Of a stretch of DNA of 35,231 nucleotides, positions 2,199 to 34,969 are shown one piece after another. Location: assembly GCA_938034975.1 (NCBI GenBank), contig CALHNI010000006.1, forward strand, positions 71,790 to 107,020, given 5' to 3'. The position numbers and the translations under genes are program-made. The stretch is from Candidatus Goldiibacteriota bacterium (GTDB taxonomy: Bacteria; Oederibacteriota; PGYV01; DYJU01). The first letter of the stretch is position 1. Every line of letters starts with the position of its first letter. Below the pieces are notes generated by a model. The model did not search any database. It had not been told where the DNA came from and saw only the letters and a list, made by a program, of their open reading frames with translations.

Positions 2199-2667
2199 TC
2201 TTTTCTTCCTCCATTTTAATTATTTGAGCCATATCGTCTTTTTCTTCTTCTGTAAATATTTTTTCAATATTTAAAAGGACTATAATTCTTTCTTCAATTT
2301 TTATTATTGCTTCTATGTATTTACCACCTGCGCTTATAAGCGTTGATGGTGGTGGTAAAATTTCTTCTTTTTTAACATTTAACACTTTTTGAATTTCATC
2401 AACTATAACTCCTGCAAGCTGATTTTTCTGCAATTCAATTATTATTATTCTGCTTTCTTTTGTTTTTTCTTTTGATTCAAGATTAAATCTTTTTCTTAAA
2501 TCAATTATAGGTATTATTTTACCGCGTAAATTTATTATTCCTTCCATGAATAAAGGTGCTGTAGGAACCTCTGTTATTTCCTTTATCTTTATTACCTCAA
2601 CTATTCTCATAATATCAAAAGCAAACTCTTCATCTTTTATTTTAAAACTGACAACCTTTTTTTCCAC
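2176..2667 (-). CDS. cheW: CheW chemotaxis coupling protein
   Basis: CheW bridges receptors and CheA. The 163-residue product has the typical CheW pattern: an N-terminal VVSFKIKDEEFAFDI strand pair, GIINLRGKIIPIIDLRKRF in the middle, and a C-terminal ILPPPS...YIEAI segment followed by a charged tail. I prefer the GTG start at 2667 (7 nt after GAGG) to the TTG at 2670, which is only 4 nt from it. The gene lies just downstream of the receptor gene and its last codons overlap cheY, which fits a co-translated signalling operon. Confidence 0.95.
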   Translation of the reverse strand: MEKKVVSFKIKDEEFAFDIMRIVEVIKIKEITEVPTAPLFMEGIINLRGKIIPIIDLRKRFNLESKEKTKESRIIIIELQKNQLAGVIVDEIQKVLNVKKEEILPPPSTLISAGGKYIEAIIKIEERIIVLLNIEKIFTEEEKDDMAQIIKMEEEKIENRTDS

Positions 2668-2676
2668 CAAATAACC

Positions 2677-3939
2677 TCATAATATAAATCTGTTTACAAT
2701 ATTTTTAAGGGTTTCAACAGCCTGAGCAAGTTCCTGCGCCTGAGCTGCTATTTCCTGCATTGATGCTGTTTGCTGTTCAGTAGATGCTGATGCTTCCTGC
2801 GTTCCTGCTGCGGTTTGTTCTGCAACTGCTGATATTTCTTCAACTGCTTTAACAACTTTATCAGTATCCTGTGCTTGTGCTTTTGTTAAATTAAATATTT
2901 CGTTTGCTAAGGTTACCACCTTTTCTACAACATCATTTATTGCTTTCAAAGCATCTTCGCTTAATTTTACTGCTTTTTTCCCTTCTTCTGTTTCATCAAC
3001 AGCATTTAAAATAGTTTTTTCAACCCCGCTTATTTTTTCGTGAATTTCATATACGAGTCCGAAGATCTCTTTTGCAGCACCTGCTGATCCTTCTGCAAGT
3101 TTTCTAACTTCATCAGCAACAACAGCAAAACCACGACCAGCCTCACCTGCTCTTGCAGCTTCAATTGCCGCATTTAAAGCAAGTAAGTTTGTTTCATCCG
3201 CTATCTCTGTAATTATGTTTACTATCTCTTCTATTTTTTCAGAATAGGTCCTTAAATCATCTATTGCCTTTTTGGTATTATCTGTAACTGAAACTATATC
3301 ATCCATTTTTTTTATTGTTTCTTTCACTGCCTGTATTCCGTTATCTGTTGCCTCTTTTGCTTTTTTAGCTACCTCTAAAACTTCTTCTGAACGCCTTGCA
3401 ACATTCTGTATTGAATTAGACATATTTTCCATAATACGTGATGTTTCCAAAGTTCTTTCTGCCTGCTGTTCAACACCGCGTGCTATCTGTTGAACAGTTG
3501 ATGATATTTCTTCTGATGAAGCATTTATTTCTTCTGTTGATGCAGATAAATTTTCAGAAAGAGAAAGAATTTTTACAGTTACATCGTTTACCTGTTCTAT
3601 TATACTTTTTAAGCCATCAACCATTTTATTTATAGTATCGCTAAGATTTTTTAAATATTGTTTTTCTTCTATTTTTACAGTTAAATTTCCCTCTGAAATC
3701 TGCTTAAAATGAACAGCAAGATTTTCAAGCATTTTATTGATTATATTTAAAGATAAAATTATATTTCCGGCTAATAAAACTAAAATTGTACTGAAACATA
3801 AAACAAAAAAAGAAAAACTTTTTAATTCAATCTTAAAAAAAATCAAAATTAACATAAAAAATAAAAAAACTATAAGTCCATAAATGATACCCATATGTAT
3901 TAATCTTTGTATTATATCTTTTCTATCATATATTTTCAT
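2677..3939 (-). CDS. Methyl-accepting chemotaxis protein lacking a periplasmic sensor domain
   Basis: This is a 420-aa chemoreceptor. Two hydrophobic segments (about 13-36 and 43-64) are separated by only a few residues, so there is no external ligand domain. A HAMP-like linker follows (about 65-117), then a long coiled-coil signalling domain. The conserved hairpin tip is at about 243-275 ([17 protein letters not shown]...[16 protein letters not shown]), and Glu/Gln-rich candidate methylation helices flank it (about 150-200 and 370-395). No C-terminal CheR-tethering pentapeptide is seen. The ATG overlaps the cheD stop as ATGA. It may sense membrane or cytoplasmic cues, or partner with other receptors; this is inference. 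Confidence 0.95.
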
Positions 3940-4406
3940 ATAATTTTTTCACCTTTTGCATAACTTTTTACAATTGCCTTTTTTGTCACAACATCAAACT
4001 CTATTGTTCTGCCATAATTACTGCCTGTGTCTTCGCCTGATATTTTAATTCCTTTTTTTGAAAGTATTTCTTTTGCCATTTTTATATTTTTTTCTCCAAT
4101 GCTTTCAGAACCTGATTTTATATCAAACATCGTTGCTCCACCGAAAATTTTTGCTTCAATATTATTAATACTCACATCAAGGTTTATAAGTTCTTTTATT
4201 AAATTTTCAATACCTGCATCTACGAACCTGTTTTCCGATACACCTTTTTTCTTTTGTGGAAGTATTGCATGAAGCATGCCTGCAATCGGTGCGTATTTAT
4301 CATAACAAACAACAACAACACATGAACCAATACCATATGCAGAAAATTTAAAATATCCTTTTGCAACTTTTAATTCTCCAATGTTTACTCTTATGTTATC
4401 CGCCAT
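3936..4406 (-). CDS. cheD: CheD chemoreceptor glutamine deamidase
   Basis: CheD deamidates selected receptor glutamines and, in Bacillus and Thermotoga, is bound by CheC to form an adaptation loop. The 156-aa protein has the family core YGIGSC with catalytic Cys29, MLHAILP with His46, and the later FGGATMF segment. Aligned by eye to my recollection of Thermotoga CheD, the catalytic Thr falls on Ala23 here, with Ser22 next to it. The stop overlaps the receptor start by 4 nt, so enzyme and a likely substrate are made together. Confidence 0.94.
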
Positions 4407-4413
4407 TTACAAC

Positions 4414-5037
4414 TTATGAACCTTTTATCGTTGCATCCAATGCATCCATAATTTTTATCATAGCATCTTTATCAGGGATAATAATCAATGTTGTTGAAAT
4501 TTGTGATGTTTCTTCTATCATATCATTTTCTATTAAAAGAGCTTCTTCGTCTATCTCTGCAATTTCTGATGATATAGTCTGAAAAATGGCTTCTATCATA
4601 TCAATGGCAAGAGCCGGAACAGAAGGCACAGAATTTAAACCAATAAACTTTGCTATTGCATTAAGATAGGCTGATACAATTATATTTCCTATTTCTTTTA
4701 AAGCTGATTGCTCATTTTCTCCAAGTTCTTTTGTTTCCCTGGTTTTTCTTTTCATAACCAAATCAAGTATGGGAAAAATTTTTTCCTTCGGAAAAATTAT
4801 CAACGCCTTTGCAGTTATTTCACCGTAAATTCTTAAATAAACCGCTGCAACAATTTCGTTTTTGTTTTTTGCATTTTCTGTTATTTTTACAACAGGAATA
4901 AAATTTATGGAAGGAACACTTAATTTAATATTTTTTCCAATAAGCTGGGATAATGCTGTTGCCGCATTCCCGGAACCAATATTTGCAAGTTCAATTAATG
5001 CATCTTTTTGAAAATCAGAAAATTCTTTTTTACTCAT
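4414..5037 (-). CDS. cheC: CheC-type CheY-P phosphatase
   Basis: CheC dephosphorylates CheY-P and binds CheD. The 207-aa protein carries the first signature ELANIGSGNAATAL at about 16-29 (active Glu and Asn) and a second, more diverged one, EIGNIIVSAYLNAI, near 114-127. The second keeps Glu and Asn, so both active sites may be functional. The start ATG 5037 lies 1 nt after the stop of the upstream cheY, and cheD follows after 7 nt, so enzyme, target and partner are encoded together. CheX or FliY are alternatives, but the two-site pattern and the cheD neighbour favour CheC. Confidence 0.93.
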   Translation of the reverse strand: MSKKEFSDFQKDALIELANIGSGNAATALSQLIGKNIKLSVPSINFIPVVKITENAKNKNEIVAAVYLRIYGEITAKALIIFPKEKIFPILDLVMKRKTRETKELGENEQSALKEIGNIIVSAYLNAIAKFIGLNSVPSVPALAIDMIEAIFQTISSEIAEIDEEALLIENDMIEETSQISTTLIIIPDKDAMIKIMDALDATIKGS

Positions 5038-5038
5038 T

Positions 5039-5404
5039 TTATTTACCTATAATTTTTCCGATTGTTTCCAAAACATTATCCTGATCAAAAGGTTTTACTA
5101 TATAATCTTTTGCACCTGCCTGTATTGCTTCTATTACAAGCGTTTGTTGTCCTATTGCACTGCATATTATAATATTAGCATCTGGAATTTCTGAAATAAT
5201 TTGTTTTATAGCTTCAATCCCGCCCATTTCCGGCATTATCATATCCATGATCAATAAATCAGGCTTTAATTCCTTAAACATCTGAATAGCTTCTTTACCG
5301 TTATTGGCTTCTCCAACAATTTCATAACCTGCTGGAACTAATATATTTTTCAGCATCATCCTCATAAATGATGCATCATCAGCAAGTAATATTTTTTTAG
5401 CCAT
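5039..5404 (-). CDS. cheY: CheY chemotaxis response regulator (first gene of operon)
   Basis: This 121-aa single receiver domain has Asp9/Asp10, phospho-acceptor Asp54, Ser82 and Lys104. It begins at ATG 5404, 7 nt after a strong AGGAGG, and is the first gene of the chemotaxis operon. The upstream ~360 bp hold no gene but contain the ~185 bp repeat. It is followed after 1 nt by cheC, its likely phosphatase. The close similarity to the CheY at 1836-2198 points to an in-operon duplication. Confidence 0.94.
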   Translation of the reverse strand: MAKKILLADDASFMRMMLKNILVPAGYEIVGEANNGKEAIQMFKELKPDLLIMDMIMPEMGGIEAIKQIISEIPDANIIICSAIGQQTLVIEAIQAGAKDYIVKPFDQDNVLETIGKIIGK

Positions 5405-5478
5405 TTATATCCTCCTGAATTTTTATATATTATAACATATTTTATTTTACATCACTACATATTAAAAGTCCAGTATTT

Positions 5479-5665
5479 TACCTGAAAATTGCAATAGAAA
5501 ATTACAATTTTTAAGTAGAAAAAAATATTATCAATCAAATAAAATTTATTTTAAATAATAAGTGGAATAAAAGTAATACATAATAAAAATAAAAATTTAT
5601 TAAATAAAATATATAAAAATATTTGGTTTTCCCTTAAAAACGTTTTTTAAAATGCGATTTTACGG
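5479..5665 (-). repeat. ~185 bp non-coding repeat, copy A (minus orientation) with hairpin ends
   Basis: This is the only recognisable content of the 361-bp gap between recR and cheY. Each end can form a hairpin. The 5479-5517 end pairs 15 of 17 positions around an AGAAA loop. The 5632-5665 end is imperfect and includes TGCGATTTTACGG. Read on the minus strand, the interior contains AAATATTTTTATAT, then AATAAATTTTTATTTTTATT, then TATTACTTTTATTCC. The same order is found at 25314-25486 and 35038-35231. The element is too AT-rich and stop-laden to code. Any promoter for the chemotaxis operon must lie in or beside it, but none is convincing. Confidence 0.75.
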
Positions 5666-5765
5666 TTTTATCCTTTAAAAGTAAACCAGGTATTGGATTT
5701 TAATATAAAAAAATTATAAATTTGTTTATTTCATCCTACTGCCAGCAATTATAAATCATTATTTA

Positions 5766-6371
5766 TTAAATCTCTTTCCTCTCCAATATTGCCTGCCCAA
5801 GTGTTATTTCATCAGCATATTTTATATCAGCACCTGTTGGCAACCCCTTTGCTAATCGTGTTATTTTTATATTGTTTTTTATTTTTTTTATTTCTTTGTA
5901 AATATATAAAGATGTTGTGTCTCCTTCTACGGTATGATTCAGGGCAAGTATTGCTTCATGAATTTCATCATCTGCGTTTAATCTTTCAATTAACTCTCTT
6001 ATTTTTAAATCTTCAGGCATAATTTCATTTATAGGATTTATAAGACCGTATAAAATATGATATACACCGTTGAATTTTTCTGTTTTTTCAATGGTTACAA
6101 CATCTTCCGGTGATTCTACTATGCATACAATATTTTTATTTCTTGTTTTATCACTACATATTAAACAAATATCTTCTTCACTTATGTTAAAACAAATCTT
6201 GCAAATTTTTATATCTTTAATACCATCAATGGCATTTTTAAGTTCATCTGCTGCGTTTTGATAATTTTTCATTAAATAAAGAGTAATACGTTCTGCCATT
6301 TTTGGACCAACACCGGGGAATTTTGATATTTCATTTATAAGTTTTTTAATCTGATTTGGATAACTATACAT
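5766..6371 (-). CDS. recR: RecR recombination mediator protein
   Basis: RecR acts with RecO (and RecF) to load RecA onto SSB-coated DNA. The 201-aa length is typical. An N-terminal helix-hairpin-helix region (KFPGVGPKMAERI, about 18-30) is followed by a four-Cys zinc site (Cys57, Cys60, Cys69, Cys72). A Toprim domain comes next (about 80-175; CIVESPEDV, then ILALNHTVEGDTTS) with TRLAKGLPTGADIKY after it. It starts 2 nt after the ybaB stop and ends the dnaX-ybaB-recR operon. Confidence 0.97.
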   Translation of the reverse strand: MYSYPNQIKKLINEISKFPGVGPKMAERITLYLMKNYQNAADELKNAIDGIKDIKICKICFNISEEDICLICSDKTRNKNIVCIVESPEDVVTIEKTEKFNGVYHILYGLINPINEIMPEDLKIRELIERLNADDEIHEAILALNHTVEGDTTSLYIYKEIKKIKNNIKITRLAKGLPTGADIKYADEITLGQAILERKEI

Positions 6372-6373
6372 TT

Positions 6374-6700
6374 TTAAAAAATTCCGGGGAAATTTATTCC
6401 AAGCCCACCTGTTATTTTTTTTGTTTCTTCTTCCAGCATTTCCTGTGATTTATTTATAGCTTCATTAATACCAGCGACAATTAAATCCTGAAGCATATCT
6501 ATATCTCCACTTTCTATTAATTCTTTGCTTATCTCTACCTTAACTATCTGTTTTGCCCCGTTGGCAACAACTTTCACAGCTCCGCCACCTACTGTTATCT
6601 CAACAGTTTTTTGTTTTAACTCCTCCTGTATTTTTTGAAATTTTTCCTGAAGTTCCTGAGCCTTTTTTAAAAAATTATTTATATCTCCAAAACCTCTCAT
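6374..6700 (-). CDS. YbaB/EbfC family nucleoid-associated protein
   Basis: This small (108 aa) DNA-binding protein of the YbaB/EbfC family forms a homodimer and is almost always encoded between dnaX and recR. The N-terminal half is a charged helix (KKAQELQEKFQKIQEEL). The centre has the family strands VEITVGGGAVKVVANG and the C-terminal part has DLIVAGINEAINKSQE. The ATG follows AGAGG by a short spacer. The gaps to dnaX (12 nt) and recR (2 nt) show co-transcription. Its precise role (nucleoid organisation or recombination) is not settled. Confidence 0.95.
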   Translation of the reverse strand: MRGFGDINNFLKKAQELQEKFQKIQEELKQKTVEITVGGGAVKVVANGAKQIVKVEISKELIESGDIDMLQDLIVAGINEAINKSQEMLEEETKKITGGLGINFPGIF

Positions 6701-6712
6701 TTTTTAACCTCT

Positions 6713-8362
6713 TTAGTTCGTTTTTTTTATTTTTATTTCTGAAAATTCACCGAATATTTCTTCTAATTTTTTTACAACCGGATGATTTTTCACTTCTTCA
6801 ATAATTACATCTTTCTGGATTTGCATTCTTTTTAAATAACTTTCTTTTTCTATAATATTAATTTTTATTTTTCTTTTAAATTCATCTTCTAAAATTTTCT
6901 GTAAAATATCTGTTTTTTTTAATATTCTTCCATATAAAAATGAATTGTCAACCAAAAGAAATAAAATGTTATCTTCAAAATTAATTATTGCACATTTTTG
7001 CAACGCCTGGACAAAATCATCTTCTTCTTTTAATGAAACAGCTCTTTCAATGATATTTTGCCATCTTTTATTTATAATTTCTTTTGTTAATTCTTTTACT
7101 TCTTCATCTTCTTCTATATCTTCAACAATAAATTTTTTTTCATCTTCGTCTATTCTTTCTTCTTTTATATCAGTTTTGTGTTTATTATTTTCATTTATTG
7201 TTTTATTTTCTACCTCTTTTTTACCTTCAACATTCAATTCGTTTTCTTTTATTTTTCCTTCACTAATTGCTGTTTTAAAAATAATATCAAGTAATGATAT
7301 TTCCAAAGTTAGCCCTGCTATATGTGATTTTGCCAACATCTGTTCCATTTCAAAAAATTTTTGCAAATAAATTAATAGTTGTTTTTTATCTATATCTGCT
7401 GCTGCTTTCTTTAAAAAATCCAGGTCATCTGCTGGGATATTTTTACCAAACTCTTTTTCATCAATTTTTATAAGTAAAATATTACGAAAGGCATCTGTTA
7501 ATTCTCTTACAAAATGTTTCAAGTCATATCCTTCTTCAAAAATTTTTTCTATATTTTCTATAAGCAATTTTATATCTTTTATTAATATAGCGGATATTAT
7601 TCTTTTCAACATATCTCCTTTTATAATTCCAAGTAAATCTCCCACAATTTCTTCTGTAATTTTTTCGCCTTTTGAATAAGTTATTGCCTGATCCACTATC
7701 CTTTGAGCATCACGTAAAGCACCATCTGCATATCTGGCAATAGCAAATAGAGCTTTTTCATCCGCATCTATTTTTTCACTTTTTAATATTAACTTTAAAT
7801 TATCAAAAATTAAATTGGCAGATAATCTTTTAAATTTAAACTGCTGACATCTTGAAAGTATTGTCTGTGGAATCTGCTGCGGATCTGTTGTGGCAAAAAT
7901 AAAAATAACATGACTTGGTGGTTCTTCCAATGTTTTTAAAAGAGCGTTGAATGCTTCTTTTGTAAGCATGTGAACTTCATCTATTATATAAATTTTATAT
8001 TTTCCTTTTGCTGTTCCAAAAGCAACATGTTCACGTAACTCTCTTATTTCATCTATACCGCGATTTGATGCGCCATCTATTTCAATAACATCTAAAGACG
8101 AACCATCTGTAATTTCCCTGCATGCACTACATTTATTACAAGGATTTTCTGTTGGACCTTTTTCACAATTTAATGCTTTGGCAAAAATTCTTGCTGTTGT
8201 TGTTTTTCCAACCCCACGTGGTCCAGAAAATAAATAAGCATGCATAATTCTATTTAGCTGTATTGCCCTTTTTAAAGGTATTACTACATGGTCCTGTCCT
8301 ATAATTTCTTCAAATACTTTTGGCCGCCACTTTCTTGTAAATACAAGATAATCCTGTTTCAT
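6713..8362 (-). CDS. dnaX: DNA polymerase III subunit gamma/tau
   Basis: DnaX is the motor of the sliding-clamp loader. The AAA+ region shows Walker A GPRGVGKT (47-54), a zinc module with Cys66, Cys75, Cys78 and Cys81, Walker B IYIIDE (about 124-129), and the arginine-finger segment TILSRCQQFKFKR. Domain III ends near 360. A highly charged Lys/Glu linker (about 370-430) leads to a tau-specific C-terminal domain, for a total of 549 aa. The linker holds a run of eight adenines with an early stop in the -1 frame (separate entry). The SRP RNA ends about 41 nt upstream and ybaB-recR follow. Confidence 0.97.
   Translation of the reverse strand: MKQDYLVFTRKWRPKVFEEIIGQDHVVIPLKRAIQLNRIMHAYLFSGPRGVGKTTTARIFAKALNCEKGPTENPCNKCSACREITDGSSLDVIEIDGASNRGIDEIRELREHVAFGTAKGKYKIYIIDEVHMLTKEAFNALLKTLEEPPSHVIFIFATTDPQQIPQTILSRCQQFKFKRLSANLIFDNLKLILKSEKIDADEKALFAIARYADGALRDAQRIVDQAITYSKGEKITEEIVGDLLGIIKGDMLKRIISAILIKDIKLLIENIEKIFEEGYDLKHFVRELTDAFRNILLIKIDEKEFGKNIPADDLDFLKKAAADIDKKQLLIYLQKFFEMEQMLAKSHIAGLTLEISLLDIIFKTAISEGKIKENELNVEGKKEVENKTINENNKHKTDIKEERIDEDEKKFIVEDIEEDEEVKELTKEIINKRWQNIIERAVSLKEEDDFVQALQKCAIINFEDNILFLLVDNSFLYGRILKKTDILQKILEDEFKRKIKINIIEKESYLKRMQIQKDVIIEEVKNHPVVKKLEEIFGEFSEIKIKKTN
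7122..7141 (-). other. dnaX: Candidate dnaX frameshift/slippage site (A8 run)
   Basis: On the coding strand the zero frame reads GAA AAA AAA TTT ATT GTT, codons 408 onward, with A8 at 7133-7140. This fits the slippery form A AAA AAA. A -1 ribosomal shift, or transcriptional insertion of one A, gives ATT TAT TGT TGA, ending at residue 413 just after the AAA+ core and so yielding a gamma-like product. E. coli and Thermus use comparable A-rich sites at an equivalent place. No convincing stimulatory hairpin or upstream Shine-Dalgarno is visible, and A8 runs are not rare in such AT-rich DNA. Confidence 0.45.
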
Positions 8363-8403
8363 TTTTACCTTCTTTTTTATTTAATTTTAAAAATTTTCTT
8401 ATA

Positions 8404-8685
8404 TGCCATACCTGTCTTATCCTTGTATATGCTTTCAGTATATAAAACATTTTTTATTCCTCTGGTCAGGCATCCTTATATCATCTCTTTAAAAATTTTC
8501 TACCGTTGCTTCCTTCCGGACCTGGCGGGGTTTGAAAACCAAAAGAATGTATAAGACCCGACCTTCACCGGAATAAAAATATTTTAAAAATACTTAAGCA
8601 TATCCGCGGATAAGTTTTTCAGCCCGGCATAAAGCGGGTTTCCGGTTACAGGGCACCGCTAACGCCCCGCTTTAAGGTATGGCAC
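8404..8685 (-). ncRNA. ffs: Signal recognition particle RNA, long form with Alu domain
   Basis: This is the RNA core of the particle that directs nascent membrane proteins to the Sec translocon. Near the 3' half, the conserved Ffh-binding tip AGGTCCGGAAGGAAGCA lies at 8507-8523 (minus strand). Near the 5' end, GCGTTAGCGGTGCCCTGTAA matches the Alu-domain loops of Bacillus-type SRP RNA. The termini pair: TGCCATACCT at the 5' end with AGGTATGGCA at the 3' end. This gives about 282 nt, so it is the long form and not the short 4.5S type. Its position just upstream of dnaX-ybaB-recR matches the order in Bacillus. Exact ends are inferred from the closing helix. Confidence 0.93.
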
Positions 8686-8709
8686 TTCTTTTTTTTAATA
8701 AGATCCAAA

Positions 8710-9414
8710 TCAATCAAAAAATCTATACCATATTATTTTAAAAAAAGCAATAAAACCATCTTTTGTTCTTATCTTTTTTCCTTCTTCATAACTTCTTCCA
8801 TAATAATTTATAGGCACTTCATATATTTTATATTTATTTTTTAAAATTTTTGCTGTAATTTCCGGTTCAAAATCAAACCCCTTTGACTTTAAATTTATTT
8901 TACTTATAACTTCGGTTCTGAACATCTTATAACAGGTTTCCATATCAGTAAGGATGGTATTAAAAAGTAAATTTGTAATAAAGTTAAGAATTTTATTTGC
9001 AATATAATTCCAGAACAAAAAAGCCCTGTGGGTTCCTAAAAATCTTGACCCATAAGTGACATCTGCTTTTTCTTCAATAATTGGTTTTAAAAGTTTTGGT
9101 AAATCCTGTGGATCATACTCTAAATCTGCATCCTGAATCACAGAAACTTCTCCTTTTATGTAAGGAATTGCTGTTTTTATTGCGGATCCTTTTCCCTCGT
9201 TTTTTTCTTTAAAAATTACTGTTATATTTTTTTTATTTTTAATTATTTTTTTAAGTATATCCCTTGTTCCATCTGTTGAACAATCATCAACAATGATAAT
9301 CTGTTTTTTTACTTTATTTATTTTTACTTTTATTACTTTATCAATAATTTGCTTTATTGTGTTTTTCTCATTAAAAACTGGAATTATAATTGTCAAGATT
9401 TTAACTTTTTTCAT
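8710..9414 (-). CDS. GT2-family glycosyltransferase, dolichol-phosphate mannosyltransferase-like
   Basis: This 234-aa GT-A fold enzyme is expected to transfer a sugar from a nucleotide donor to a polyprenyl phosphate. Motifs are IIIPVFNEKNTI (about 9-20), VDDCSTDGT with Asp43/Asp44, and the metal-binding QDADLEYDP with Asp95-Ala-Asp97. There is no C-terminal membrane extension, so it resembles soluble DPM1-type synthases. It starts 5 nt after the stop of the GT-C membrane protein, which would use the lipid-linked sugar. Sugar and acceptor cannot be predicted. It ends about 25 nt before the SRP RNA. Confidence 0.88.
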   Translation of the reverse strand: MKKVKILTIIIPVFNEKNTIKQIIDKVIKVKINKVKKQIIIVDDCSTDGTRDILKKIIKNKKNITVIFKEKNEGKGSAIKTAIPYIKGEVSVIQDADLEYDPQDLPKLLKPIIEEKADVTYGSRFLGTHRAFLFWNYIANKILNFITNLLFNTILTDMETCYKMFRTEVISKINLKSKGFDFEPEITAKILKNKYKIYEVPINYYGRSYEEGKKIRTKDGFIAFFKIIWYRFFD

Positions 9415-9419
9415 CTTAT

Positions 9420-11276
9420 TTAAACCTTTTTTGAGTTTAATTTCAGGAATAATAAAATAATAATAGTAAAATAAATTATAACCAAAAAATAATTGTATAT
9501 TATATTATCATAAAAAGATGGAAAAAAATATAAAATTTTTTTAAAAAAAGAATTTTGTAAAACAGCATAAATTTTTTCTTTGCCGCTAAAATATCTAATT
9601 GCAGGAATTATCATTAAAAAATAAGATATAAAAAATGAAAAAGAAATTAATATCTTAAAAATTTTTGTTTTTATGAATTCTGTGCGTTCAAGAAAATAAG
9701 CTGTATAATAAATAAAAACCGGCAAAACCGGGATTAACTGCCTTGCAGGAGTCATTGAGCCCCCCCAGTCTTTCCATAAAAGAAAAAGTATATAATATGG
9801 CAAAATAAATAAAAGTTGTAATAACTTTTCCTTTTCTTTTTTAAAAATAACAAGCAATATACCCCATATAAATATAATACAAAAAGGGTTATAAATGAAT
9901 AAACCATAATCTCTGTCAAATAGAGTTGCTAAAAATGCTTTTATAAAATGTTTTATACTGAATATAAAATAAAAGGATTCAGAAGTATAAATGCTTGTAA
10001 GTGCACCTGTTGCAGTTTTTCCATATATACTATAATAGTATAACATAAATAAAAATGCTGTTATTAAAACCAAAATGTTGTTTAGTAATTCATTCTTTAT
10101 TTTTAATTTTTTTGATTTTAATAATAAAAAATAATAATAAAGATAAAAAATTACTGAAAATAAAGCAAGTTTAGAATGTATGAAAGGCAGAAAGGATATA
10201 CCAATAAAAAATAATATATGATCTTTTTCTGAATTAAACTTTGTTAAAATCAATAATGCATAAGTTATAATTAACACTGCAGGAATTTCAGTTAAAACGA
10301 GTGAAGAATTTATTAAAAAAGGAACTGTTAATGCTGTTATAAAAACTGTTAAAAATGCAATTTTCTTTGAAATACCAGCTGCCTGCAAATAAAGAAATAA
10401 AACAATTATGAACAGAGCAGTTAAAAAATTCATAAAAATCTGAACACCTATTCTTTTTCCAAGAAAATAAGGCAGGGATATTAAAAATGGAAGCCCTGGT
10501 GAGTGAATTGAATAAATTCCTTTTCCAGTTTTATCTTTTGTATTATGAATATTTTCATATTCTAAAAAAGCCGGATAAAAATCCATATAAAATTTTGTAT
10601 CTGTATAATTATTTTCAAGATTAAAATCCCTGTCATAAATTAAACTTTTGGCTATAAGTAAATAATGTGGTTCATCTCCTGTTGGCGGGTATATTGTTGT
10701 TATATATGTGGTTGTTATTACATAAAACAAAAATAGTAATAAGAAATATTTTTTTAATCTGTCTTTTAAAAAAACATTTATCGTATCATTATATTCATTG
10801 AATATGAATCTCAGCATAAAGAAAAATGCAATTGATATCAGATAAAATCCAAAAATCATTATTAAAAAATATCCTGGAAATAAAAAATGAACAAATTTTC
10901 CAAAAGGCAAATAAACAAAACCAACCATTTTTAAATTAATCATTTTTAATTTTTCATAGATAAAAAAATACAACGGCAAAATAAATAAAAGCGATAATGG
11001 AAGACAAAAAATTATAAAATTTTTATTTAATTCAGTTTTAACATCAATTCTATTTAGTTTTGCTGAAAAAATTGAAATTATCATATAAAAAACAGTATAA
11101 AACACACTAAAAAAAATCATTAAAAACGCAAGTAAAAAATAGTTGATTTTGAATATTGATAAATTTCTATCGCCTGCCTGTGATATAATTAAAAAAAATA
11201 ATATACCTGATAAACCACCTGATAAACTTATAAAAATTGATTTTAAAAAAATTCCTTTAGGCTCTTGATTTTTCAT
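9420..11276 (-). CDS. GT-C fold membrane glycosyltransferase (ArnT/PMT-like)
   Basis: This 618-aa protein has many hydrophobic segments and is very rich in Phe, Ile and Leu. The first large non-cytoplasmic loop carries TTIYPPTGDEPHYLLIAKSL with Asp201-Glu202, the acidic pair that serves as catalytic/metal site in GT-C enzymes such as ArnT and PMT. A second family-like motif, YSIHSPGLPFLI, follows about 50 residues later. It probably moves a sugar from a polyprenyl carrier to lipid, polysaccharide or protein outside the membrane. Its neighbour at 8710-9414 could make that carrier. It begins 1 nt after the preceding stop. The substrate is unknown. Confidence 0.83.
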   Translation of the reverse strand: MKNQEPKGIFLKSIFISLSGGLSGILFFLIISQAGDRNLSIFKINYFLLAFLMIFFSVFYTVFYMIISIFSAKLNRIDVKTELNKNFIIFCLPLSLLFILPLYFFIYEKLKMINLKMVGFVYLPFGKFVHFLFPGYFLIMIFGFYLISIAFFFMLRFIFNEYNDTINVFLKDRLKKYFLLLFLFYVITTTYITTIYPPTGDEPHYLLIAKSLIYDRDFNLENNYTDTKFYMDFYPAFLEYENIHNTKDKTGKGIYSIHSPGLPFLISLPYFLGKRIGVQIFMNFLTALFIIVLFLYLQAAGISKKIAFLTVFITALTVPFLINSSLVLTEIPAVLIITYALLILTKFNSEKDHILFFIGISFLPFIHSKLALFSVIFYLYYYFLLLKSKKLKIKNELLNNILVLITAFLFMLYYYSIYGKTATGALTSIYTSESFYFIFSIKHFIKAFLATLFDRDYGLFIYNPFCIIFIWGILLVIFKKEKEKLLQLLFILPYYILFLLWKDWGGSMTPARQLIPVLPVFIYYTAYFLERTEFIKTKIFKILISFSFFISYFLMIIPAIRYFSGKEKIYAVLQNSFFKKILYFFPSFYDNIIYNYFLVIIYFTIIILLFLKLNSKKV

Positions 11277-11277
11277 A

Positions 11278-11943
11278 TTAATCCTTTTTTCTATAATGAT
11301 TCAATGGTTTTCTTCCAAGGACATAAACATTTGTTTTTCTTCTACCCCATTTAAGTGCTTCTTCTGTTGTATTATAACAAAGGTCTATTCTTTTTCCTTT
11401 TATTGCACTGCCTGTATCACCTGCCCAGGCAAACCCATAGCCTTCTATATATAAAAGCGACCTTAAAGCAATTATCTTAGGGTCAACTGCTGCTATGCCA
11501 TATCTTGTTCTCCATCCAAGTTTTGTAATTCCTGCCCATTCTATATTGTTTGATTCGGGTGAAGGATCGTATGCCGTCGCTTCCATATTATATTTATAAT
11601 GAACGTATGTTTCCTGTGGCACAGTTATTGGGTGTTTTTTTTCAGAAGCGCCAATTATCAATAAAGCATCTTCGGGTTTTTTTAGTATATCTGATTTAAA
11701 AATATTTTTTTCATATATTTTTTTACCCAATATTTTATATTCTTTCTTTACTATTTTTTTATAGCCATGTCTGCCTTCTCTTACCCATATTTTCCATCCC
11801 TGCTGGATATCGTTGGTTTTTTTAGATATTATTTTGAATGGTATATTTTCATTTTCAATATAATATTTTTTATTTAAAAAAAACAGAATACAAAATAAAT
11901 AAAGTAAATATAAACCAAATAAAAAATATATAATTTTTTTCAT
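11278..11943 (-). CDS. G5-like and 3D-domain cell-wall protein
   Basis: This 221-aa protein has an N-terminal membrane anchor (about 3-23), a G5-like region (about 35-100, including KIWVREGRHGYKKIVKKEY), and a C-terminal 3D domain (about 115-210). The three Asp residues that give the domain its name are Asp154 (VDP), Asp176 (AGDTG) and Asp187 (RIDL). ATAYDPSPE precedes them and TTEEALKWGRR follows. 3D domains share the MltA double-psi barrel fold and occur in peptidoglycan-cleaving Rpf/YabE-type proteins, so a cell-wall hydrolase in the periplasm is likely. Its ATG overlaps the cyclase stop as ATGA. Confidence 0.88.
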   Translation of the reverse strand: MKKIIYFLFGLYLLYLFCILFFLNKKYYIENENIPFKIISKKTNDIQQGWKIWVREGRHGYKKIVKKEYKILGKKIYEKNIFKSDILKKPEDALLIIGASEKKHPITVPQETYVHYKYNMEATAYDPSPESNNIEWAGITKLGWRTRYGIAAVDPKIIALRSLLYIEGYGFAWAGDTGSAIKGKRIDLCYNTTEEALKWGRRKTNVYVLGRKPLNHYRKKD

Positions 11944-23672: not shown

Positions 23673-24779
23673 TTATTTTCTTATTGGCATAATTATATAA
23701 ATAAAGTCGTCTCTTTCCGGAATTTTTATTAATCCAGGATTCATAGAGCTTACAAGGTTTATTTCTATTTCTTCATCTTTAATTGTCTTTAAAAAATCTA
23801 TCAAATACATTGCATTATAGGATACTTCCATAGAATCACCATCGTATTTACTGTCAATTTCTTCCAGTGCTTCTCCTTCATCCTGAACAGAAGAACTTAT
23901 TAATAATTTATTTTTTTCAAATTTTAATGAAACTATTTTTGATTTCTCCGATGTAATTGTTATTATCCTTTCTATAGCAGATAATATTTCTTCTCTGTTG
24001 ATAATTGCTTTTGTAATAAAATCTTTTGGTATTACCTGCTTATAATTTGGATAATTTTCATCTATTATTCTTGAAATTATTTCTATATTTTCTGTTTTAA
24101 ATTCTATTAATTTATCATACAAATTTATTTCAACAAATTTTTCTTCATCTTCTTTTATTATTTTAACAATTTCGTTTACTGTTTTTAATGGTATAATATA
24201 TTCAAATTTTGCTTTTACCGTTTCTTTTATTTCTGTTTTATAAAAAGCCAGTCTATGTGCATCAGTTGCAACAATTTCAAGGTTTTTACCTTCAAGTTTC
24301 ATAAAAACACCATTTAAATTTCTTTTTGAACTTTCTTTTAAAGCAGCATAAGATACAGAATTAAAAATATTTAATAGTAATTTTTGTGATAATTTTATTG
24401 TTTCTAATTTTTTTTCTTCAGGCTGAAGGGTTGTAAATTCTTCTGCTGGGAAACCTGGTATTGTATATTTTGATTTTAAACAGGTAAGATTTATATTATC
24501 ATTTTTAACATTTTGAAAAACAATTTCTGCTTCTGGAAACTTTTTTATCAAGGAAACAATTTTTTTATTAACAGCAACCCTGCCTTCTTCTTCTATTTTT
24601 TCTACTTTGCATTTTATTTTAGCACTTATGTCAAGATCTGTGGATATGATGTTAACTATGTCTTTTTTTACATCAAATAATATGTTTGATAAAGCAGGTA
24701 TTGTTGTTCCGGATGCTATAAAATAACTTGAAATAGACAATGGTTCTGAAATCTCACTTTTTTTTGCTATAAATTTCAT
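23673..24779 (-). CDS. dnaN: DNA polymerase III beta sliding clamp
   Basis: The beta clamp encircles DNA and tethers the polymerase. The 368-aa length is normal. Family features are LSNILFDVKKDIVNIISTDLDISAK near the N-terminus, FPAEEF near residue 113, VATDAHRLA in the middle, and the C-terminal binding-groove ending YIIMPIRK. ATG 24779 follows AGGAGG by 5 nt. dnaA lies upstream but is separated by 708 bp that include a TIR element and DnaA boxes. recF, the usual next gene, is absent and gyrA follows directly. Confidence 0.97.
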   Translation of the reverse strand: MKFIAKKSEISEPLSISSYFIASGTTIPALSNILFDVKKDIVNIISTDLDISAKIKCKVEKIEEEGRVAVNKKIVSLIKKFPEAEIVFQNVKNDNINLTCLKSKYTIPGFPAEEFTTLQPEEKKLETIKLSQKLLLNIFNSVSYAALKESSKRNLNGVFMKLEGKNLEIVATDAHRLAFYKTEIKETVKAKFEYIIPLKTVNEIVKIIKEDEEKFVEINLYDKLIEFKTENIEIISRIIDENYPNYKQVIPKDFITKAIINREEILSAIERIITITSEKSKIVSLKFEKNKLLISSSVQDEGEALEEIDSKYDGDSMEVSYNAMYLIDFLKTIKDEEIEINLVSSMNPGLIKIPERDDFIYIIMPIRK

Positions 24780-24807
24780 AAATTCCTCCTTTTTAATTTA
24801 TTTGTAG

Positions 24808-25049
24808 TGTGAAAAGTTTTAACGCTTTTCACTCAAAAATCCTTTTATTAATATACTTCTGTTGCCTTTTGTTCTCCCTTTATCAAAGGTTAGGGGGATT
24901 TACATACATCCATTCTCTTTTTCTCGCTTTCTTTTAATTTAAAAACTCCCCTAACCCCTCTTTATTAAAGAGGTGGAAATGTATATTATTTTTAATACTT
25001 TTAGTATATATTTTAATCTCTGCATTCCTTTTTCATAGAACTTTTAACA
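24808..25049. mobile_element. MITE-like element with TGTGAAAAGTT terminal inverted repeats, copy 1 (242 bp)
   Basis: This non-coding element is bounded by TGTGAAAAGTT (24808-24818) and AACTTTTAACA (25039-25049; 10 of 11 match to the inverse). Just inside the left end a second dyad pairs GTGAAAAG with CTTTTCAC (24809-24832), giving a stable hairpin. The interior holds CTCCCCTAACCCCTCTTTA with a nearby complementary AAAGAGG. The same left arm, interior and right arm occur at 29728-30147 in the same orientation. It lies 28 nt upstream of the dnaN start, between the DnaA boxes and dnaN. No transposase or ORF is inside. Confidence 0.72.
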
Positions 25050-25313
25050 TTACATTATCAATTCATTTTTTATCCACAATATAACAATATAAACATCAAA
25101 TATCAATTATCAAATTTAAGTATATGTTTATGTTGTTGTATTGTTAATATTGTTAATAAACAAAATTATAAATATTTTATTATTATTTTCTAAAATTATT
25201 ACTGTGAATAATTAACCTATTTTATTATATTTAAGCAAAATTATCCACAAAAATATTTTAAAAAAAAATTATTAACTAATTATATACATGTTATTAATAA
25301 AAATATGTTAACA
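25050..25313. other. oriC: Probable oriC core: AT-rich DNA with three consensus DnaA boxes
   Basis: Between dnaA and dnaN, exact DnaA boxes occur at 25070-25078 (TTATCCACA, plus), 25203-25211 (TGTGAATAA, that is TTATTCACA on minus) and 25241-25249 (TTATCCACA, plus). Very AT-rich DNA with repeated TTGTTAATA/TTATTAA stretches lies between and beyond them and could be the unwinding element. With a second box cluster upstream of dnaA, this fits a bipartite origin like that of Bacillus. The assignment rests on boxes and gene context only. Confidence 0.7.
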
Positions 25314-25486
25314 ATAAAAAAGCATAATAAGAAAACATTTTTTTACCTAAAAAACAAATATTTTTATCTTTTTTATTAAATAAATTTTTATTTTTATAAC
25401 GCATCACCTTTATTTACCATTTTTCAAATAATATTTTTAGTAATTTTTCTTTTGAAAAATTAAATTTTAAATTGCGTTTTCAGGTA
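25314..25486 (+). repeat. ~185 bp non-coding repeat, copy B, abutting the dnaA stop codon
   Basis: This plus-oriented copy has the interior AAATATTTTTATCTTTTTT, then AATAAATTTTTATTTTTATA, then ACGCATCACCTTTATTTACC. It ends in GCGTTTTCAGGTA directly at the dnaA stop (25488-25490). Copies A and C share the same order of blocks. The left terminal hairpin is degenerate here and the right one is weak, so this copy looks older. It fills the space between the DnaA boxes and the 3' end of dnaA. Confidence 0.72.
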
Positions 25487-25487
25487 T

Positions 25488-26846
25488 TTATTTTTGTATT
25501 CTTGCAATCAATTCATTTAATAAAATTTTATATTTTTCATCCTTTTTTATTAATTTTTCTATTTTATCTATAGCATGCATAACAGTTGTATGATCTTTTC
25601 CACCAAAATATTGCCCGATTTGAACAAGGGAATATTCTGTTAATGATCGTGTTATATACATTGCAAATTGTCTAGCAAGAGCAATATTTTCAGGTCGTTT
25701 TTTTGATGATAAATCCTGAACTTTTATATTAAAATAATCAGCAACAACCTGTTGTATAAGGTCAATTCCTATTTTTTTTGAAAAATCTTTAACAGGATTA
25801 GTCATTTTAACAGCTTGTTTTGCCAAATCCATACTTATTTCAACCTTATTCAGATCTGAAAGCGAAATTAAAGTTTTAAAAGTGCTTCCTAATGCTCTTA
25901 CATTTGTATCAACATATTCAGCAATATAAGCAATTATATTATCCGGGATAACCCTGTTTATTTCTTTTGCTTTTTGTTTTAATATTGCAACTCTTAATTC
26001 AAAATCAGGTGGTTGTATATCAGCAATAATACCAGATGAAAAGCGGGATTTTAATCTTTCTTCTAATTTGAGTTCAGAAGGTGGAGAATCAGACGTTGCA
26101 ACTATTTGTTTATTGCGTAAATGGAGTTCATTAAAGGTGTGAAAAAATTCTTCTGTTGTTGATTCTCCTTTTAAATATTGTATATCATCAACCAGCAAAA
26201 GATCAACGTTTCTGTATTTTTCTTTAAATTCGTCCATTCTTTTTTCATTTATATGGCGGACAACTTCAGATAAAAACATTTCAGCTGTTATTATTATTAT
26301 ACGCATTGAAGGATTATGTTCATAAACAAAATTGCCTATGGCGTGTAACAAATGCGTTTTACCAAGCCCTACTCCGCCATAAATAAAAAGCGGATTATAT
26401 GTCTGACCTGGTGATTCTGCAACTGCTTTACAGGCAGCGTGTGTAAATTTATTACTGTTCCCAACAATAAAATTATCAAATTTAAAAGCAGAATTTAAAT
26501 TAGGAATATAATTTATTTTTGTTTCCAGAGGTAAAGTAATTTGTTTTTCTTTGATTGTAATTTTGGGAACATTAAATTTTTTAACCTGCAAAAGTGGATC
26601 TGGTTTTACATTTGTTATGAGAGAAATTTCTTCATTATTTAAAATTTTACGAAGCACAGAAAGAATATCATATTTATATTTTTCATCAAGAGTTTTTTTA
26701 TGAAATGCATCCGGCACTTCTATAACAAACTTATTTTCAGTTTTATCATAAAACCCATTTGCATTTTCAAGCCATATATGTATGTTAGGGAAATTATTTT
26801 TAATTTGATAAATAAAACTATCCCACTCATTTGTATTTGTGGCCAT
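25488..26846 (-). CDS. dnaA: Chromosomal replication initiator protein DnaA
   Basis: DnaA binds origin boxes, opens the duplex and helps load the helicase. The 452-aa protein has a small N-terminal domain I (about 1-80), a short linker, and an AAA+ domain with Walker A GGVGLGKTH (157-165) and Walker B LLLVDD (216-221). The C-terminal domain IV has the DnaA-box helix-turn-helix signature, LVQIGQYFGGKDHTTVMHAI. The ATG follows a GGAGG by about 13 nt, which is long. DnaA boxes upstream suggest autoregulation. Confidence 0.98.
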   Translation of the reverse strand: MATNTNEWDSFIYQIKNNFPNIHIWLENANGFYDKTENKFVIEVPDAFHKKTLDEKYKYDILSVLRKILNNEEISLITNVKPDPLLQVKKFNVPKITIKEKQITLPLETKINYIPNLNSAFKFDNFIVGNSNKFTHAACKAVAESPGQTYNPLFIYGGVGLGKTHLLHAIGNFVYEHNPSMRIIIITAEMFLSEVVRHINEKRMDEFKEKYRNVDLLLVDDIQYLKGESTTEEFFHTFNELHLRNKQIVATSDSPPSELKLEERLKSRFSSGIIADIQPPDFELRVAILKQKAKEINRVIPDNIIAYIAEYVDTNVRALGSTFKTLISLSDLNKVEISMDLAKQAVKMTNPVKDFSKKIGIDLIQQVVADYFNIKVQDLSSKKRPENIALARQFAMYITRSLTEYSLVQIGQYFGGKDHTTVMHAIDKIEKLIKKDEKYKILLNELIARIQK

Positions 26847-31643: not shown

Positions 31644-33791
31644 TTAAATAATTTTTGACTTTGGCACATAAAAAGTAAATGTGCTCCCTTTTCCATATTC
31701 GCTTTCAACTTCTATACCGCCGTTATGTAATTCAAGAATATATTTTACTATTGGCAATCCGATACCTGTTCCACCTATTTTTTTTATATCTTCTGTTTTT
31801 GCTCTGTAAAATTTTTCAAATATATGAGGAAGATCATCTTTTGGGATACCTAAACCTTCGTCTTTTACACTTACATAAATTTTATCATTTTTTTCTTCTA
31901 ATGCAATATAAATTTTTCCGCCGTTAGGAGAATATTTAACAGCATTTGATAAAAGATTTGTCATAACCTGTATCATTTTATTTTTATCAACAAAAATTTT
32001 TTCTGAAGTTTCAGGAATATTAAGAACAATTGTATGTTTTTCAGAAGCACTTTTAAAAGTTTCAGCAACGTTTTTTATTATTTCGGTAAAGTCAGTTTCT
32101 TCAAGCGATAAACTTAAACCTTTACCTGATTCTATTCTTGATAGATCCAGCAAATCACCGATTAAAGAACCGAGACGCTGCGTTTCTTTATTAATTATAG
32201 TAGAAAAGGTTTTTATTTTTTCTTCACTTAATTTTCTTGTCATCATAAGTTCGCTATACACCTGAATAGGGGTTAGAGGTGTTCGTAACTCATGGGAAAC
32301 CATATTCAAAAATTCTGATTTCATTTTGTCTAATTCTTTTATATCTGTGATGTCCCTAAAAACCGCAACTGAACCCTGTATTTCTTTTTTTTCATCAAGG
32401 ATAGGAGCAAAAACAGCGGCAAAAACATGCTCTTTATTTCCAAGGGTTAATTTAATTTCACTTTTTGTTATGTTTTTTGTTTCAAGGACTATGTTGAAAT
32501 TATCTATGAATTCTTTTGTTTTGATATAACTTTCTATTGATTTGCCAATAGCGTATTCTGTTTTAAGTGTGAACAATTTTTCTGCAACCCTGTTAGTCAT
32601 AACAATATTTTTTTCTTTATCAACGGCAAGAACTGCATCTTCCATTGACTGTAATATGGATTCAATTCGCCCTTTTTCAATTGAAAGGTTTATCATTGCT
32701 TCTTTTAATTCTTTGTTGAGTTGTTCAGCCCTTTCTTCCAAATGTTCATAAAGGTTTGTGTTTTCAATAGCAATTGCTGCCTGGGAAGCAAGGGCTTCCA
32801 AAAATTTTATTTCTGATTTTGAAAATGTTCCGCCGCCTATTTTATTTAAAACCTGAACAACACCTATTGTCTGATTTCTTACTTTTAACGGCACACAGAT
32901 AATTGAACGTGTAATAAAATGTGTTTGTTCATCAACTCTTTTTGCAAATCGCGGGTCTTTGGAAACATCCGGGACCAAAAGTGATTCTCCGGTATATGCT
33001 ACCCAACCTGCAACTCCTTCCCCCATTTTTAACCTTATTTTTTTTACTTCTTCTTCTTTTGGACCTGTTGCAATTTCAAAATATAGTTCATTTTTTTCAT
33101 TATCAATTAAAAATACGGAAGATGCTTCTGCCTGCATAACTTTTTCTGCGGATTGCATAATTATTTTTAAAAGTTGTTTTAATACACGGGTTGAATTAAT
33201 AATAATACTTGCTTCCATAAGCGCACTCATCTTTGCAATTTCTTCTTCTTTTTGCTTGTTGGCAAGTTGTGTTATGTATTCCTGAACAGAAAGCTCTATT
33301 ACCATATTAAAAAGGTCAACAATAAGATCCCCAAGATTTTTAAGTTTGTCTGCGGTAAAAAATGGAATGTTTTGATATGCCTGTAATAATTCGTTATAAT
33401 TAACACCTGCTTTTTCGCTTAATTCTTTTATTATCTGTTCATTTAATTTTTTTTCTTTTATTCCGACAAGAATGTAAAATTTTCTTCCGTAAAAATATGT
33501 ATTTGCGCAATAATAATCAAAATCTCCATAAAGAGTAACAAAATTATCTTTATTTACTGTGATTTCCTTTACAGAGCAGAGTTTTTTACCATTTTCAGTT
33601 GAGGTTAAGATTTTATAAAATTCGCTAAAATTGCTTTCTTCGGTATTAATTTTTCCGTCTTCACTTATAACCTTTATTGCTATCCCTAACACTTTGGCAA
33701 GTTTATATTGTATTCCTTCCCAGAATTTAATGTTAAATACATGAGCATAATCTATTGTTGAGTTTGTTTTTGATTGTATTATTTCTGCCAT
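31644..33791 (-). CDS. Soluble hybrid-sensing histidine kinase with PocR-like, GAF and PAS domains
   Basis: This 715-aa cytoplasmic kinase has no membrane segment. Residues ~15-170 look like a PocR sensory domain (Cys72 and Cys95; FKF-like start and YFYGRKFYILVGI). GAF is at ~195-345 (GEGVAGWVAYTG, IGVVQVLNK), PAS at ~375-485, HisKA at ~488-555 with His500 (MVSHELRTPL), and HATPase at ~595-713 with intact N (NLLSNAVKYS), G1 (DEGLGI) and G2 (GTGIGLPIVK) boxes. The start ATG overlaps the hypB end by 13 nt, so the kinase is translationally linked to the nickel-maturation genes. The receiver at 31219 is the likely partner. Confidence 0.9.
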   Translation of the reverse strand: MAEIIQSKTNSTIDYAHVFNIKFWEGIQYKLAKVLGIAIKVISEDGKINTEESNFSEFYKILTSTENGKKLCSVKEITVNKDNFVTLYGDFDYYCANTYFYGRKFYILVGIKEKKLNEQIIKELSEKAGVNYNELLQAYQNIPFFTADKLKNLGDLIVDLFNMVIELSVQEYITQLANKQKEEEIAKMSALMEASIIINSTRVLKQLLKIIMQSAEKVMQAEASSVFLIDNEKNELYFEIATGPKEEEVKKIRLKMGEGVAGWVAYTGESLLVPDVSKDPRFAKRVDEQTHFITRSIICVPLKVRNQTIGVVQVLNKIGGGTFSKSEIKFLEALASQAAIAIENTNLYEHLEERAEQLNKELKEAMINLSIEKGRIESILQSMEDAVLAVDKEKNIVMTNRVAEKLFTLKTEYAIGKSIESYIKTKEFIDNFNIVLETKNITKSEIKLTLGNKEHVFAAVFAPILDEKKEIQGSVAVFRDITDIKELDKMKSEFLNMVSHELRTPLTPIQVYSELMMTRKLSEEKIKTFSTIINKETQRLGSLIGDLLDLSRIESGKGLSLSLEETDFTEIIKNVAETFKSASEKHTIVLNIPETSEKIFVDKNKMIQVMTNLLSNAVKYSPNGGKIYIALEEKNDKIYVSVKDEGLGIPKDDLPHIFEKFYRAKTEDIKKIGGTGIGLPIVKYILELHNGGIEVESEYGKGSTFTFYVPKSKII

Positions 33792-34456
33792 TGTTTTTTC
33801 CTTTTTAACCAGTTAAAAAGGACTTTAAGCCATCTTTCAAGATTTTTTTCTTTAATCGCGGATATTTCCATCATTTTTAAATTCGGTTTTATTTTTTTTA
33901 CATTATTTTTTAGATTTACTGTATTTATATTAAGAAAAGGTAAAAGGTCAATTTTATTTATCAAAAGCAAATCTGCAACCTGAAACATCAAAGGATATTT
34001 TAGTGGTTTATCTTCTCCTTCTGTTAAAGAAAGTAAAAGAACTTTTTTATCTTCGCCGAGATAAAAATCAGCCGGACAGATTAAATTCCCAACATTTTCT
34101 ATAATAATTATATCATATTTTTTTTTATTTACTTTTAATTTTTTTAAAGCAAAATTTATCATCCTGGCATCTAAATGACACCCACCGCCAAAAACTTCTG
34201 TTTTTATCTGAATAACATCTTTTATATATTTTTTAATTCTTTTGGCATCATTTGATGTTGTAACATCGCCCTCTATTACACCGACTTTATATTTATTATT
34301 AATACTTTTAAGGGTATTTTCAAGAAGCGTGGTTTTTCCTGCTCCAGGAGAACTCATTATATTTATACAAAGAGTGTTTTTGAGCAATTTTTTATTTTCC
34401 CCGGCAATCTCATCATTACGTTTTAATATATTTTCAAAAATTTCTATTTCAGACAT
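33779..34456 (-). CDS. hypB: Hydrogenase/urease nickel-insertion GTPase HypB, without N-terminal nickel motif
   Basis: HypB is a SIMIBI GTPase that helps HypA deliver nickel to [NiFe]-hydrogenase. The 225-aa protein has the P-loop SSPGAGKTT (35-43), IEGDVTTSNDA, the intersubunit metal site Cys93-His94 (GGCHLDA) and Cys127 (NLICPADF), and the guanine motif NKIDLLPF. It begins MSEIEIF and lacks both the CXXCGC nickel motif and the His-rich stretch found in some HypBs. A matching CXXCGC peptide is encoded separately at 34818-34865. hypA lies 7 nt upstream. No hydrogenase gene is in view. Confidence 0.95.
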   Translation of the reverse strand: MSEIEIFENILKRNDEIAGENKKLLKNTLCINIMSSPGAGKTTLLENTLKSINNKYKVGVIEGDVTTSNDAKRIKKYIKDVIQIKTEVFGGGCHLDARMINFALKKLKVNKKKYDIIIIENVGNLICPADFYLGEDKKVLLLSLTEGEDKPLKYPLMFQVADLLLINKIDLLPFLNINTVNLKNNVKKIKPNLKMMEISAIKEKNLERWLKVLFNWLKRKKQWQK

Positions 34457-34817: not shown

Positions 34818-34865
34818 CTATTTTTTCTTTTTTTTCTTAAGTCCACATCCGCAGGTTTTACACAT
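34818..34865 (-). CDS. 15-residue micro-ORF: CXXCGC peptide, a detached HypB-like nickel motif
   Basis: The ORF encodes MCKTCGCGLKKKKKK and ends in TAG. A full AGGAGGC lies 8 nt before the ATG, as good a ribosome site as any in the window. The first eight residues match the CXXCGC N-terminus of E. coli HypB (recalled as MCTTCGCG), a high-affinity nickel site. The local HypB lacks this segment. Nine nt separate the stop from hypA, whose own AGGA overlaps this stop. The six lysines may form a basic tail. That it is translated and binds nickel is inference; it is too short for ordinary gene finders. Confidence 0.65.
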   Translation of the reverse strand: MCKTCGCGLKKKKKK

Positions 34866-34891
34866 TTTTTATTGCCTCCTTTTAATTTATA

Positions 34892-34969
34892 TGGTGGGCT
34901 GGACTGGACTTGAACCAGCGACTTCCATCCTGTGAAGATGGCACTCTAACCAAACTGAGTTACCAGCCC
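34892..34969 (-). tRNA. tRNA-Val (anticodon CAC)
   Basis: A full cloverleaf can be drawn. The acceptor GGGCTGG pairs with CCAGCCC, the D stem ACTC with GAGT, and the anticodon stem CCATC with GATGG around loop TTCACAG. The T stem GCTGG pairs with CCAGT around TTCAAGT. Discriminator A73 and an encoded CCA follow. Loop positions 34-36 are CAC, reading GUG valine codons; the anticodon lies at 34932-34934. The 78-nt gene ends 26 nt before the micro-ORF ATG. Confidence 0.95.

Follow-up and report, generated by a model that had tools for sequence, protein, structure and literature searches.

A short CXXCGC reading frame conserved ahead of hypA and a tip-less hypB in Goldiibacteriota: a candidate nickel micro-metallochaperone

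The HypB protein of E. coli binds Ni(II) with a sub-picomolar Kd by means of Cys2, Cys5, Cys7 and the N-terminal amine (PMC7055735), and a passage of the same article cites a HypB-derived peptide as a high-affinity metal binder (its reference 118). In HypB of A. fulgidus, hydrophobic N-terminal residues have been shown to contact HypA (PMC3287977). The window described here (the whole stretch of DNA that was analysed, 35,231 nucleotides of a Goldiibacteriota genome) contains a short open reading frame (ORF) that resembles the nickel-binding N-terminus, or tip, of the E. coli protein and lies ahead of the genes hypA and hypB. A literature search, with most subscription journals outside its scope, turned up no account of a HypB tip as a free peptide, and the original prediction likewise knew of no described case. 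While the chemistry itself is established, the arrangement has, so far as could be checked, not been described.

The tip reading frame and its genomic setting

Features of the locus are listed in Table 1. It had been predicted that a 15-codon ORF encoding MCKTCGCG, Leu and six Lys, preceded by AGGAGG, is located upstream of hypA, and translation of this stretch confirmed it. The frame consists of 48 bases (ATG TGT AAA ACC TGC GGA TGT GGA CTT AAG AAA AAA AAG AAA AAA TAG), and its TAG stop (34820-34818) does overlap the ribosome site of hypA as proposed, this being a weak AGGA ahead of the hypA ATG at 34808. In the genome of the window there is a single MCxxCGCG match. Nine ATGs in the window (35 kb, both strands) have GGAGG 5-18 nt upstream: these belong to the tip ORF and to eight long ORFs of 121-873 aa, among them dnaA, dnaN and hypB. 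The genes dnaN and dnaA adjoin each other at positions 23673-26846, which probably places the chromosomal origin within the window or close to it.

Table 1. Position of the tip reading frame and neighbouring features in the window
Feature	Position	Strand	Remarks
tRNA-Val(CAC)	34892..34969	(-), same strand as tip	26 nt upstream of tip start
AGGAGG ribosome-binding site of tip ORF	34880..34875	(-)	9 nt 5' of tip ATG
Tip ORF, 15 codons, free CXXCGC tip with Lys tail	34865..34818	(-)	translation MCKTCGCGLKKKKKK, then stop
hypA, nickel metallochaperone, 114 aa	34808..34464	(-)	HypA PF01155 7.9e-35, TIGR00100; MHE start, CxxC..CxxC zinc motif intact
hypB GTPase, 225 aa, without N-terminal CXXCGC	34456..33779	(-)	TIGR00073 1.6e-73; GTPase-domain metal residues GCHL, NLICP present

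The HypB of the window begins MSEIEIFENI, 7 nt past the hypA stop, which leaves no room for an overlooked N-terminal tip and rules out a missed N-terminal extension. The Ile residues at positions 4 and 6 fit the hydrophobic HypA-contact residues of A. fulgidus HypB, so the annotated start looks authentic. The protein is intact and of the tip-less TIGR00073 type, possessing the G domain and the metal residues of the GTPase site without the N-terminal CXXCGC, and the original prediction that it starts at its GTPase region was thus borne out. The tip is not covalently joined to this GTPase domain: it is a separate ORF, with hypA located between it and hypB. The end of hypB overlaps the start of a gene for a PocR/GAF/PAS sensor kinase (33779-33791), and a similar kinase gene lies 3' of hypB in three of the related genomes described below (G001, G002 and G007); the hyp genes may therefore share an operon with a two-component system. 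A tRNA-Val(CAC) gene is found directly upstream of the tip and hypA in four genomes of two families (the window and loci L141, L142 and L143) and is possibly co-transcribed with the hyp genes.

The window's genome carries HoxEFUYH, a Hox-type [NiFe]-hydrogenase, together with a maturation protease, and both active-site motifs (RxCGxC and DPCxxCxxH) are present in the Hox large subunit. Besides hypA and hypB in the window, the genes hypC, hypE and hypF (identified by sequence reading) and hypD (identified by Pfam) are located on another contig, so that hypA-F and a [NiFe] large subunit, the components of a [NiFe]-hydrogenase maturation system, occur in the same genome. HydF-, HydE- and HydG-like genes, identified by sequence reading, follow the Hox genes on the same strand (L137, G000:C6:1-12000, positions 2506-11493). 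The presence of these genes resembling [FeFe]-hydrogenase maturases beside the Hox genes suggests that both hydrogenase types are found in one genome.

Conservation in Goldiibacteriota and occurrence elsewhere

The tip is found directly before hypA in five genomes from three families of one Goldiibacteriota order (the window's genome, G000, as well as G001, G002, G007 and G004), the peptides being MCKTCGCGLKKKKKK, MCKNCGCGVNKKKKKK, MCKTCGCGTKTKKTKKSKKTKK, MCKTCGCGVTKKTKKKKKVKK and MCGVCECGCGCGDVKRKKAGKTVKKLKGRSKAGKTIKGKKKKQDA. The four further genomes, which belong to the family of the window and to two others, each possess a strong ribosome site and a Lys-rich tail, followed by hypA and a tip-less hypB; frame and cysteines are kept throughout, and the original prediction did not fail for want of conservation in relatives. 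The four close copies (G000, G001, G002 and G007) all start MC-x-x-CGCG with CXXCGC at residues 2-7, while the third family (G004) has an extended Cys-rich variant, namely a longer tip with extra cysteines and a K/R-rich tail. Within the phylum, MCxxCGCG was identified in four genomes only, namely that of the window, that of its genus mate (G001) and two from the second family, always immediately before hypA. The record DYJU01000009.1 (L007), which shares its tip ORF with G001 and is one of the three Goldiibacteriota cases of the scan described below, is titled Candidatus Methylomirabilis sp., a name that looks outdated or wrong.

Among the four close copies, third positions account for five of the six variable sites in the 8-codon core (P=0.007), and the Cys and Gly codons of the tip differ only synonymously. 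GGAGG precedes the ATG in all five tip ORFs. Tail length and A-run vary among the tips and the CXXCGC residues are kept; at the G004 locus (47% GC) the tail is still K/R-rich, its codons not forming a poly-A run. What is conserved in the Lys tail, to judge from these peptides, is its character and not the sequence itself. His is absent from all five peptides. Conservation, third-position changes and ribosome-site specificity rule out a chance ORF; translation of the peptide, and selection on it, are very likely, and the tip ORF is most likely translated as a micropeptide and comes first among the coding units of a tip-hypA-hypB operon. Furthermore, it follows tRNA-Val in the four genomes with close copies and hypE in G004, two upstream contexts which indicate that the tip stays with hypA across neighbourhoods.

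The six genomes of the order that possess hypB all encode hydrogenase large subunits, and the tip is present in five of them; no MCxxCGCG ORF was identified in the eight genomes of the order without hypB. The remaining genome, G006, encodes a hydrogenase of the same type, hypA and a tip-less hypB, and has the same upstream gene (hypE) as G004, with no tip before hypA. A search of G006 with a relaxed pattern gave background-like matches only, as in genomes without hypB. The tip is thus dispensable at least in G006, where hydrogenase, hypA and tip-less hypB persist with none at this locus. The expected linkage of tip and hypA with a motif-less HypB thus holds in five genomes and is not obligatory, G006 and most genomes with tip-less HypB outside the lineage having no free tip.

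About 85,000 species genomes were scanned for a tip followed by a hypA start within about 70 nt; only ATG starts were considered, the tail had to be short and HypA had to begin MHE, so that longer forms like that of G004 are missed. The scan returned 14 stretches: three from Goldiibacteriota, nine that encode an intact HypB with a fused tip, and two due to chance. Within these criteria, true cases of the short tip-hypA arrangement occur only in Goldiibacteriota, and a widespread split tip is ruled out by the nature of the other stretches. In a sample of 385 genomes, MCxxCGCG was identified in 30, and a reversed-pattern control in one of 385. Of these 30 matches, all of which were read, 18 lie in tip-fused HypBs, one of them truncated at a contig end; four are the Goldiibacteriota tips, five belong to small proteins and three look like chance. 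No Lys-tailed free tips were found in three other phyla (3, 339 and 23 genomes).

The five small proteins are of two other kinds, located away from hyp genes. Those of L036, L037 and L056 (genomes G350, G068 and the 0.8 Mb genome G103) are 55-79 aa long, start MCYxCGCG and possess a conserved D-D-x-G stretch and a ribosome site; they have no Pfam match over the cut-off and, for the members tested, none above the NCBIfam cut-off, and in G103 the protein is present without a HypB match. Those of L047 and L048 are Cys-rich proteins of 36-37 aa that start MCNxCGCG, contain additional CxxC motifs and end in a Lys-rich stretch; they show no Pfam or NCBIfam family over the cut-off (one of the two tested). 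As MCxxCGCG starts occur in small families that are not beside hyp genes, the motif alone is no proof of a HypB-like role.

Possible functions and origin of the free tip

A peptide starting MC-x-x-CGCG has all four nickel ligands of the E. coli site, and for this reason a free nickel carrier for HypA/HypB is proposed. By this analogy, the tip is probably a micro-metallochaperone supplying nickel to HypA/HypB, the free equivalent of the N-terminal nickel site of E. coli-type HypB. The sequences lend support through the conserved frame, cysteines and ribosome site, the linkage to hypAB, the tip-less HypB and the presence of a hydrogenase. With the NCBIfam model HypB_prefix_1 (NF053667), the tips of G002 and G007 score 19.9 and 17.8 bits (E 0.0015 and 0.0067), which is sub-threshold at a cut-off of 30, and the G004 form has no match (first 43 residues tested).

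It is unlikely that the peptide is instead a general metal or thiol buffer, sequestering Zn, Cu or Ni in the manner of a metallothionein so as to protect HypA/HypB or the cell instead of delivering nickel. The extra cysteines of the G004 form (MCGVCECGCGCG) and the small MCxxCGCG proteins away from hyp genes would suit such a buffer, but the tip is tightly linked to hypA in the five genomes and, within the order, confined to hydrogenase-positive members, which argues against a buffer.

Quite unlikely is a leader, whereby translation of the tip opens or regulates hypA through coupling or attenuation, the peptide being incidental or serving in Cys or metal sensing or in poly-Lys pausing. The tip has a strong ribosome site, and in G002 and G007 hypA has no Shine-Dalgarno sequence of its own and starts 2-3 nt past the tip stop, while in G004 the two genes overlap by 8 nt. 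These very short or overlapping junctions and the missing Shine-Dalgarno sequences, which also count in favour of the translated micropeptide, point to translational coupling, and suggest that hypA may depend on translation of the tip; the poly-A/Lys stretch also favours a leader. However, folding revealed nothing unusual in the RNA structure (z -0.33 to -0.76), neither a conserved alternative structure nor a terminator, as of an attenuator, was identified before hypA, and no Rfam element was found besides the tRNA. Moreover, a leader does not account for CXXCGC being kept where tail length and A-run vary, or for the G004 tail codons.

The tip had also been predicted to be part of a split chaperone, and here the HypB tree tells against the prediction. 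Among 61 HypBs (closest matches and tip-bearing matches, not a census), the six from the order form one clade (100/99), with G006 sister to G004, inside a tip-less group (80/83) and away from the tip-fused HypBs. As tip-less HypB is common among the genomes compared and the HypBs of the order branch with it, the tip looks added, not cut off. Addition of a free tip to a tip-less HypB fits these sequences better than recent fission of a fused HypB, which is disfavoured by the tree; a very old fission is conceivable. The simplest history would be that the tip was acquired by the order's ancestor, with later loss in G006, or was gained twice. That the tip is a functionless relic of a recently split HypB is very improbable, for, although it resembles the fused HypB tip, the HypB clade sits with tip-less HypBs, and in three families the tip has retained its frame, cysteines and ribosome site, most of the changes in it being synonymous. 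A tip-HypA fusion made by stop read-through or frameshifting is extremely improbable: tip and hypA are in the same frame in G000, G001 and G007, but frames differ in G002 and G004, which excludes it as a conserved mechanism, G001 has two in-frame stops, and nickel binding by HypA requires its free MH(E) N-terminus.

Proposed mechanism and comparison with known nickel-binding systems

For the nickel carrier favoured here, we infer translation, metal identity, nickel binding, Met removal, delivery, partner and tail role from the analogy with known HypB proteins. The initiator Met would be removed before Cys2, after which Cys2, Cys5, Cys7 and the free N-terminal amine would hold one Ni(II) in the same geometry as was measured in the E. 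coli protein. The peptide would pass the nickel in trans to the HypA/HypB pair, and it would then be inserted into the Hox-type [NiFe]-hydrogenase of the cell. The Lys tail would replace the linker and probably serve in solubility or in docking on some partner; as the net charge of HypB is positive and that of HypA near neutral, simple electrostatic docking of the tail on either is not favoured. Tentatively, the tip may be a stand-alone nickel micro-metallochaperone, that is, a diffusing CXXCGC peptide of 15-45 aa that loads HypA/HypB in trans, CXXCGC being otherwise known only as the N-terminus of HypB; the HypB lineage that gained it would have been without a fused tip from the start or for a long time.

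In this uncultured lineage, whose HypB is tip-less, the same nickel-binding device seems to come as a separate piece and, if this is true, the peptide would be among the smallest metallochaperones proposed. A separate tip peptide beside a tip-less HypB, with a sister genome without the tip, provides a natural test of tip action in trans, and of whether the tip loads HypA, HypB or the hydrogenase. An ORF of this length falls below what routine gene callers pick up, so that similar parts may go unnoticed elsewhere.

In common with the N-terminal CXXCGC site of E. coli-type HypB, the tip has MC-x-x-CGCG at its N-terminus and the same Cys2/5/7 spacing, and is encoded with hypA and hypB. It differs in being a separate protein of 15-45 aa without a GTPase domain, in being Lys-rich where HypB has a linker or His-rich stretch, and in falling below the NCBIfam cut-off. 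The HypB of the window is like the tip-less 'type 1' HypBs (A. fulgidus, H. pylori and Acetobacterium) in consisting of the G domain only, with the Cys-His and Cys metal residues and hydrophobic N-terminal HypA-contact residues, but it is accompanied by a free tip ORF. The small MCYxCGCG and MCNxCGCG proteins of other phyla share the free state and MCxxCGCG start of the tip, whereas their sequences after the motif are different and their genes are not beside hypA/hypB. Like Hpn, Hpn-like proteins and the C-terminal tail of SlyD, the tip would be a nickel reservoir in trans to HypA/HypB, a likeness by analogy only; unlike these, it is not His-rich, has no PPIase domain, is 15-45 aa long and is encoded in the hypAB operon.
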